A stretch of DNA of 64,000 nucleotides from Actinomyces timonensis DSM 23838 (GTDB lineage Bacteria; Actinomycetota; Actinomycetes; Actinomycetales; Actinomycetaceae), in contig NZ_JH806633.1 of assembly GCF_000295095.1 (NCBI RefSeq), forward strand, positions 409,424-473,423, in the 5' to 3' direction. The translations under genes were made by a program, and so were the position numbers. The notes under the pieces were generated by a model. That model had not been told where the DNA came from and did not search any database. It saw only the letters and a program-made list of their open reading frames with translations. This document shows positions 8,925 to 10,595 of this stretch, piece after piece; the first letter of the stretch is position 1; every line of letters begins with the position of its first letter.

Positions 8925-10595
8925 GTGGCTTCCTCCACTGCCCTGCGCAAGCGTGCTCAGAAGATCGACGACGCCGACGAGGTCCCCGAGGACGTCTTCG
9001 ACCTCGATGCGGACTCCGACGACGCCGATGACTCCGACGAGCAGGAGGCCGACCTCGACGACGACTCGGAGGATGACTCCGATGAGGACTCCGATGGGGA
9101 CGAGTCGGGGGACGACGAGGACGCTGACGATGACGGCGACTCCCAGGACGCCGACGGCGCCCAGGAGGACGACGGCCCCGCCCCGGAGCTGCGCGACTAC
9201 TACCTGGATGTGAACCTGGAGGAGAACGGGGACGGCACGAAGAAGCACCCCTTCAACACCCCGGCCTCCCTCAAGGGCGTCAAGCTCGCCCCCGGCGCCA
9301 CCCTCTACGTGCGCTCCCACACGATCGTCGAGGGCCTGGAGATCGCGGGCAACGGCACGCTCGAGGAGCCGATCACCCTGGCCCCCTACGGGCACGGCCC
9401 CGTCCCGCGCTTCACCATCGGCGACTCCGCGCCCCTGGTGGCCCGCGAGTTCCTGGCCGAGAACGGCTATATCTTCCGCGGCTGGGTCATCAAGGGCATC
9501 AAGATGGAGCCCTCGATCGCCGCCCTCACCGGCGAGCTGGAGAGGATGCGCCGCGAGGAGGCCGAGCGCGCCGCCGCCAAGAAGGCCGGCAAGCGCTCCA
9601 AGGAGCGGGACAAGGATGGCTCCTTCACCGTCTCCGACTCCGACGACGCCGACGAGCCCGCCCAGAAGGTCGTCACCGCGGGCGCCACCGCGGACCCAGT
9701 CAAGGACTACCTCAAGCAGATCGGCAAGGTCGCGCTCCTCAACGCCCTGCAGGAGGTCGAGCTCGCCAAGCGCATCGAGGCCGGCCTCTACGCCGAGCAC
9801 CTCCTGGCCACGGAGGGCAACGACCTCCCCTCGAAGTACCGCCGCGAGCTGCACTGGGTGGCCCAGGACGGCCAGCGAGCCAAGAACCACCTGCTGGAGG
9901 CCAACCTGCGCCTCGTGGTCTCCCTGGCCAAGCGCTACACCGGCCGCGGCATGCTCTTCCTCGACCTCATCCAGGAGGGCAACCTCGGCCTCATCCGCGC
10001 CGTGGAGAAGTTCGACTACACCAAGGGCTACAAGTTCTCCACCTACGCCACCTGGTGGATCCGCCAGGCGATCACCCGCGCCATGGCGGACCAGGCCCGC
10101 ACGATCCGCATCCCGGTCCACATGGTGGAGGTCATTAACAAGCTCGCCCGCGTGCAGCGCCAGATGCTCCAGGACCTGGGCCGCGAGCCCACCCCGGAGG
10201 AGCTCGCCGTCGAGCTGGACATGACGCCGGAGAAGGTTGTCGAGGTCCAGAAGTACGGCCGCGAGCCCATCTCCCTGCACACCCCTCTGGGCGAGGACGG
10301 GGACAGCGAGTTCGGCGACCTCATCGAGGACTCCGAGGCCGTCGTCCCCGCCGACGCCGTCAGCTTCACCCTCCTGCAGGAGCAGCTGCACGCGGTGCTC
10401 GACACCCTCTCCGAGAGGGAGGCCGGCGTGGTCTCGATGCGCTTCGGGCTCACCGACGGCCAGCCCAAGACCCTTGATGAGATCGGCAAGGTCTACGGGG
10501 TCACGCGCGAGCGCATCCGGCAGATCGAGTCCAAGACCATGTCGAAACTGCGCCACCCCTCTCGCAGCCAGGTCCTGCGCGACTACCTCGACTGA
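8925..10595 (+). CDS. sigA: Primary RNA polymerase sigma factor with unusual N-terminus
   Basis: A 556-residue group 1 sigma-70 factor. Region 1.2 starts near residue 257 ([18 protein letters not shown]). Regions 2.1-2.4 include [20 protein letters not shown], then [18 protein letters not shown], which melts and reads the -10. Region 3 contains REPTPEELA, and region 4.2 ends the protein ([18 protein letters not shown]). Before this core, residues 14-85 are almost all Asp/Glu/Ser. Residues about 88-185 (YYLDVN..., [35 protein letters not shown]) resemble the first coils of secreted parallel beta-helix proteins. A charged coiled-coil-like helix (about 200-232) follows. The GTG start has an AAAGG ribosome site 5 bases upstream. 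The core is certain; the role of the N-terminal part is unknown. Confidence 0.95.

Follow-up and report, generated by a model that had tools for sequence, protein, structure and literature searches.

Few parts of bacterial transcription are as conserved as the primary sigma factor, the N-terminus of which controls the entry of DNA to RNA polymerase in well-studied bacteria. A known system for comparison is SigA of Mycobacterium tuberculosis, likewise a group 1 sigma factor with a long extension that carries an acidic part before region 1.2; this extension comprises 207-225 residues and is reported to be disordered (PMC10011835). According to the same study, deletions reaching residue 132 kept both transcription initiation and complementation while a deletion to residue 179 kept neither, and the acidic residues 132-179, which the authors liken to region 1.1, are needed for transcription (PMC10011835). 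The Actinomyces SigA described below differs in that its extension carries a putative folded module.

The stretch of DNA that we analyzed, hereafter the window, is 64,000 nucleotides long and comes from a genome of 2.93 Mb in 4 contigs (G000:C2:409424-473423). Its sigA gene and the parts of the encoded protein are laid out as follows, in window positions:

8913..8918, + strand: Shine-Dalgarno-like GAAAGG of sigA, found ahead of all 41 distinct Actinomyces sigA genes for which upstream bases were available
8925..10595, + strand: sigA, primary sigma factor of 556 aa, with a GTG start and Pfam sigma-70 regions 1.2, 2, 3 and 4
8925..9191, + strand: aa 1-89, acidic, fast-evolving tract with 43 Asp/Glu and 4 Lys/Arg; median dN/dS 0.59
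9192..9506, + strand: aa 90-194, module of ~105 aa with homology both to the accessory modules of GH29 alpha-L-fucosidases and to the first coils of beta-helix enzymes
9507..9620, + strand: aa 195-232, conserved segment and Lys/Arg-rich stretch, from the alignment of 20 SigA; median dN/dS 0.37
9621..9692, + strand: aa 233-256, linker resembling that in SigA of other genera
9693..10592, + strand: aa 257-556, sigma regions 1.2 to 4.2 (Pfam)

From residue 211 onward, SigA matched the NCBIfam entry "RNA polymerase sigma factor" (1.8e-237), and its sigma-70 regions 1.2, 2, 3 and 4 all exceeded the Pfam cut-offs, as is the case for a primary sigma factor; a search of its own genome with the sigma core (E<=1e-5) returned SigA as the single match, so that it appears to be the sole housekeeping-type sigma factor. 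No canonical region 1.1 family was found among its six Pfam matches up to E 10, a list from which the HMMER filters drop most weak matches, and for want of such a match we rejected region 1.1 as the identity of the N-terminus. Its place is taken by the Asp/Glu-rich tract that the initial annotation had seen ahead of a distinct segment, and the protein strings quoted there do fall within aa 90-194. The module itself is near neutral in charge (11 Lys/Arg versus 12 Asp/Glu) and is 105 or 106 residues long across 42 distinct Actinomyces SigA proteins, in which the net charge of the whole N-terminal extension ranges from -14 to -56; these 42 proteins were drawn from 61 loci, several of which are one species in two collections. 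Residues 195-232, by their look, are probably helical. On the opposite strand (window 5185-8659), two genes lie divergent from sigA; read from their translations, one resembles a polyprenyl synthetase gene and the other encodes a Ser/Thr kinase with repeats of PASTA type.

The N-terminal part of SigA looks translated, given that a GTG start codon was found in all 42 distinct Actinomyces genes together with the conserved GAAAGG; the starts were placed using a protein pattern, and the GAAAGG count covers the 41 genes with upstream bases. It is highly improbable that the true start lies downstream of the module, for example at Met194, with the part upstream being separate or untranslated. Such a start would be consistent with the AAGGG that stands 7 bases ahead of the invariant Met194 codon in all but one of the 42 distinct genes, the exception having AAAGG, but the frame upstream of Met194 is open from the GTG preceded by GAAAGG, the protein encoded there is under purifying selection and has protein homologues, and in a G+C-rich genome KGIKM would most likely be encoded as AAG GGC ATC AAG ATG. 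A shorter SigA product, made in addition to the full-length form, is possible. The stretch at window 9492-9506, AAGGGCATCAAGATG, could be an internal start directly behind the module, or may be a by-product of coding.

Searched against the PDB as a single sequence, the insert gave four matches up to E 10, namely, 7v6m (0.0045), 7dmk (the PL6 alginate lyase BcAlyPL6; 0.0085), 6kqs (a lacto-N-biosidase; 0.014), and, last, an Asn-tRNA ligase (0.58). With a profile of 20 SigA sequences, 7v6m (1.1e-4), 6kqs (2e-4) and 7dmk (5.4e-3) were the three best of nine matches; the other six, up to E 10, start at 0.059 and comprise an Asn-tRNA ligase, a putative membrane protein, two alginate lyases, an Asn-tRNA ligase again and rootletin. 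Both 7v6m and 7dmk are right-handed beta-helices, and 7v6m, which is titled a fibronectin type III domain-containing protein, belongs like 6kqs to GH136. The first ~75-100 residues of the beta-helix align with the SigA module in 6kqs as well as in 7v6m, but SigA has this opening part only, without the further coils. The portion of 6kqs matched by the SigA profile, residues 251-349, falls inside its beta-helix domain, since the 6kqs report gives that domain as residues 242-663; the catalytic residues given there, D568 and D575, lie outside the matched stretch (PMC7335108).

Complete homologues in the family and order extend this resemblance, as Pfam Beta_helix ("right handed beta helix region") was found further along the chain in all 10 that were scanned (E<=0.01; over the cut-off in 7). 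A hidden Markov model (HMM) of the openings of such complete beta-helix proteins scored the Actinomyces SigA proteins at 40.2-49.5 bits (42 distinct proteins in 43 rows, the window's sequence being entered twice), whereas 2000 shuffles of the insert reached at most 5.2 bits; these scores and the PDB matches rule out a chance resemblance. Pfam and NCBIfam gave no passing match on the insert itself (PelN, 0.12, and GlutR_dimer, 0.021, were both below cut-off), and SigA has no Pfam Beta_helix match that would indicate a long run of coils; its beta-helix homology stops near aa 194, where the Lys/Arg-rich segment follows. Sequence homology to solved or Pfam-assigned right-handed beta-helix members thus bears out the initial annotation, which had likened the segment to the opening of parallel beta-helix proteins, and a predicted module fold of right-handed beta-helix coils is well supported by this homology.

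The nearest relatives of the module are found in a different setting. In 213 family genomes the best match of the insert outside SigA had an E-value of 4.7e-13, and the eleven best such matches (L092-L102) lie at aa ~790-1185 of open reading frames 1075-1537 aa long, the N-termini of which resemble, by eye, signal peptides. All seven of these carriers that were scanned contain Alpha_L_fucos (PF01120) and an F5/8 type C match (over the cut-off in five), and none of the seven has a Beta_helix match; what lies behind the fucosidase module is therefore linkers or other domains and not more coils. Of four additional carriers of the short form, drawn from other families in the order, three contain Alpha_L_fucos; the remaining one (L124) lacks a fucosidase match but has SLH and, below threshold, an F5/8 type C match. 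Profile alignment with hhalign gave 99.5% and E 3e-22 over 102 columns for SigA against the GH29 fucosidase modules and 98.3% and E 1.9e-14 against the openings of complete beta-helix proteins, these E-values being one comparison each, with relatives chosen by their match to the insert and a shallow SigA alignment (Neff 1.4). An HMM of the short modules scored Actinomyces SigA at 55.9-73.5 bits, against at most 6.7 for 2000 insert shuffles. With profile homology extending over the full module, the SigA module is almost certainly a relative of the GH29 fucosidase accessory module.

The GH29 accessory module, found in Actinomycetaceae and in other families of the order, shares with the SigA module its length, both boundaries, the glycine/proline skeleton and the GW pair; the SigA module differs in sitting inside a sigma factor instead of being attached to a fucosidase, in not retaining the WGYG motif, Gln115 and Gly132, and in having new invariant residues at Arg162, Phe163, Arg174 and Phe184. 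The initial annotation had regarded modules of this type as normally extracellular carbohydrate-binding or lyase parts: this is right insofar as the nearest relatives are parts of secreted-looking carbohydrate-active enzymes, but the closest of them are short GH29 fucosidase accessory modules and neither lyases nor the first coils of complete helices. The ~100-residue fucosidase module has no Pfam match of its own in the scanned carriers (L092, aa 794-896; L093, L094, L096, L098, L101, L102, L119, L120 and L127) and could become a family.

The module was present in all 49 genomes of Actinomyces (genus g1; E <= 2.4e-60), whereas the other 164 genomes of the family gave a weaker match in 25 (best, 4.7e-13) and none at E <= 0.05 in 139. 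SigA was sought in 34 genomes of 28 other genera, which returned 30 loci, and in the 29 readable proteins, from 25 genera, the module was absent. By eye, most SigA proteins of the other genera have a Lys/Ala/Pro/Thr-rich stretch followed by an acidic one. In 396 genomes sampled from the order, 25 matched the SigA profile at E <= 0.001: 7 were full-length Actinomyces matches, 7 were SigA of other genera matched only behind the module (profile positions 122-170), and the remaining 11 were proteins without sigma motifs. A further 396 genomes sampled from the phylum gave nothing at E <= 1e-4 besides the window's own match. Named records carrying the insert were Actinomyces in 24 of 24 cases, with A. 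denticolens and A. gaoshouyii closest at 97% across the insert, and many genus-g1 inserts are identical to those of named Actinomyces records. In one genome of another genus, the SigA core was matched as two separate pieces (G126:C1:402090-403144).

Other domains occur at the same place in SigA elsewhere in the family. In genus g42 (G150; L108:1251-2768, + strand), the N-terminal part holds one Ig-like repeat, recognized by eye. The same genome encodes a VanY carboxypeptidase with three repeats to which that of SigA is 50, 44 and 43% identical, and the start of this carboxypeptidase looks like a signal peptide; Pfam gave no Ig family for the SigA repeat and a PDB search gave one match at 0.9. 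This is again a module of apparently secreted origin, but it is unrelated to the Actinomyces module and was seen in one genome only. SigA of genus g52 (G214; L085) has N-terminal Rho_N domains (Pfam, 1.2e-17, in two stretches), and that of g26 (L082) has only weak HeH/SAP matches (0.037 and 0.066) at this place. The g42 and g52 cases indicate that the SigA N-terminus of Actinomycetaceae takes up unrelated domains, and two genera, Actinomyces and g42, appear from sequence to have a SigA domain of a kind otherwise seen in secreted-looking proteins.

The origin of the module was addressed with a tree of 35 rows (10 of the 20 aligned SigA rows, 14 short modules and 11 complete beta-helix openings), drawn with a midpoint root; its rows include L124, without a fucosidase match, and the unscanned L095, L097 and L099 (short) and L130 (complete). 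SigA modules form one group (support, 100/99), SigA and the short modules are separated from the complete beta-helices at 100/100, and SigA is nested among the short modules with moderate support (84/77 and 86/86) on a long stem (1.15). This topology fits a single capture before the radiation of Actinomyces. An origin as a truncated copy of a complete beta-helix enzyme is less likely, because the tree groups SigA with the short modules and because the L120 reading frame terminates 11 residues past the GW pair of its module. A recent copy from an Actinomyces fucosidase was ruled out on two counts: the Actinomyces module L101 (G009) is placed in the tree not with SigA but with L099 from a different genus (95/75), and at E<=0.001 the insert has no second match in the window's genome.

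The module in SigA is under purifying selection. Median pairwise dN/dS was 0.59 for the acidic tract, 0.25 for the module, 0.37 for the next segment, 0.08 for the linker and 0.06 for the core, with mean amino acid identities, in the same order, of 53, 83, 77, 93 and 97% (705 to 861 pairs); in three pairs of secreted homologues, dN/dS of the module was 0.16-0.18. The module is thus constrained like a working domain, no more so in SigA than in the enzymes and much less than the sigma core. One alternative, which we consider rather unlikely, is that it acts as a solubility or antiaggregation spacer in place of a disordered tail, so that any compact neutral domain would serve. Its near neutrality and the unrelated segments found at the same place in the family (Lys/Ala-rich tails, Rho_N domains and the Ig-like repeat) are in keeping with a spacer, but an alignment of 20 SigA proteins shows no variation at 59 of the 105 module residues, and in none of the 49 Actinomyces genomes was the module lost.

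Residue changes between 42 SigA rows and 14 short modules bear on what the module may contact. Gln115 (14/14), Gly132 (14/14), Trp141 (9/14) and Tyr143 (13/14) of the short modules are not kept in SigA, which has Ser/Ala at 115, mostly Arg at 132, small or polar residues at 141 and Asn/His/Asp at 143; the WGYG motif of most short-module rows is thereby absent, with no aromatic residue at the W or Y place in the sequences read. Conversely, Arg162, Phe163, Arg174 and Phe184 are invariant in SigA and atypical of the short modules, Arg185 is common to 4 of 14 short modules, and Lys117 and Arg130 are not gains of SigA, because these positions are basic in most short modules too. KGIKM (aa 190-194) lies outside this comparison, since the rows of the short modules were trimmed close to this point. 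The SigA module has a net charge of about 0, and ten short modules range from -7 to +3.

The lost aromatic pair speaks, at the level of sequence, against sugar binding at that site. That the module retains sugar binding, to a cytosolic oligosaccharide or sugar nucleotide, with a holoenzyme that would respond to carbon or cell wall supply, is accordingly a reading that we regard as improbable, even with nearest relatives that adjoin fucosidase and F5/8 type C domains and a GW pair and glycine/proline skeleton that are retained. The new Arg/Phe set would suit a new partner. Instead of core RNA polymerase, this partner might be some regulator, for instance a kinase, an anti-sigma protein or a further factor specific to the genus, which we think unlikely: the presence of the module throughout the genus and the invariant basic and aromatic positions not common to secreted modules are in its favor, but such a partner is itself hypothetical. 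RbpA and a CarD-sized reading frame were found in all 15 genomes tested, 7 of them Actinomyces; the module is therefore no substitute for either, a point compatible with a different regulator as partner, and a role as stand-in for RbpA or CarD was ruled out.

The reading that we prefer is a captured module reused for docking. In a single event that predates the radiation of Actinomyces, the gene for the housekeeping sigma factor would have acquired a beta-helix-type module of ~105 residues like those that secreted-looking GH29 fucosidases have as accessory modules; this module seems to replace much of the Lys/Ala/Pro-rich tail present in most SigA proteins read from the family. In the cytosol, the WGYG motif with its aromatic residues would have been lost from the module and new Arg and Phe positions would have become fixed, and it would then most likely be a folded docking or positioning module beside RNA polymerase that holds the acidic tract. 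The tract, in turn, would substitute for region 1.1, serving as a DNA-like plug or helping the bubble to form, and the module would tune open-complex formation at housekeeping promoters. Docking is favored over sugar binding because WGYG is lost and the Arg/Phe positions are invariant in SigA, and we advance a repurposed docking module beside an acidic, region 1.1-like tract as a tentative mechanism. Taken as a whole, capture plus docking module is the best explanation we can offer, with a probability that we judge to fall slightly short of even.

Comparison with the mycobacterial protein cuts both ways. By analogy, the Actinomyces acidic tract may be a region 1.1-like element that is placed further out, with the module separating it from region 1.2, and by the same analogy the tract fits the charge mimicry that the initial annotation had put forward beside a possible occupation of the RNA polymerase channel (PMC10011835). 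The same study counts against the mechanism, in that parts of a SigA extension can be dispensable, because M. tuberculosis SigA without residues 1-132 is reported to initiate transcription and to complement (PMC10011835). As a separate observation, RpoC of 7/7 Actinomyces (L167-L170 and L172-L174) has extra C-terminal columns, reading DFSDDFRTGF...ED in three rows, that are absent from 10 or 11 of 11 other genomes; this comparison of RpoB and RpoC, in 7 Actinomyces versus 11 others, ignored kinship, and the RpoC difference is a lead only.

A primary sigma factor with a captured module of secreted-looking sugar enzymes is an unexpected graft. A full-text literature search, which left most subscription papers outside its scope, returned no title on a beta-helix module in a primary sigma factor. 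The g42 and g52 cases make the Actinomyces module less isolated, and they are also compatible with the exact domain mattering little. The analysis also draws attention to a small module of secreted fucosidases that matched no Pfam family in the scanned carriers. We suggest, with reserve, that the SigA extension of Actinomycetaceae may be a slot for unrelated folded domains across genera, some of them from secreted proteins, and that the Actinomyces module may be a working part of the holoenzyme that alters promoter opening or its response to a ligand. Should the module contact polymerase or a ligand, it would be a lineage-specific general regulator of initiation, and it would then become testable how freely evolution can rebuild the site of region 1.1.
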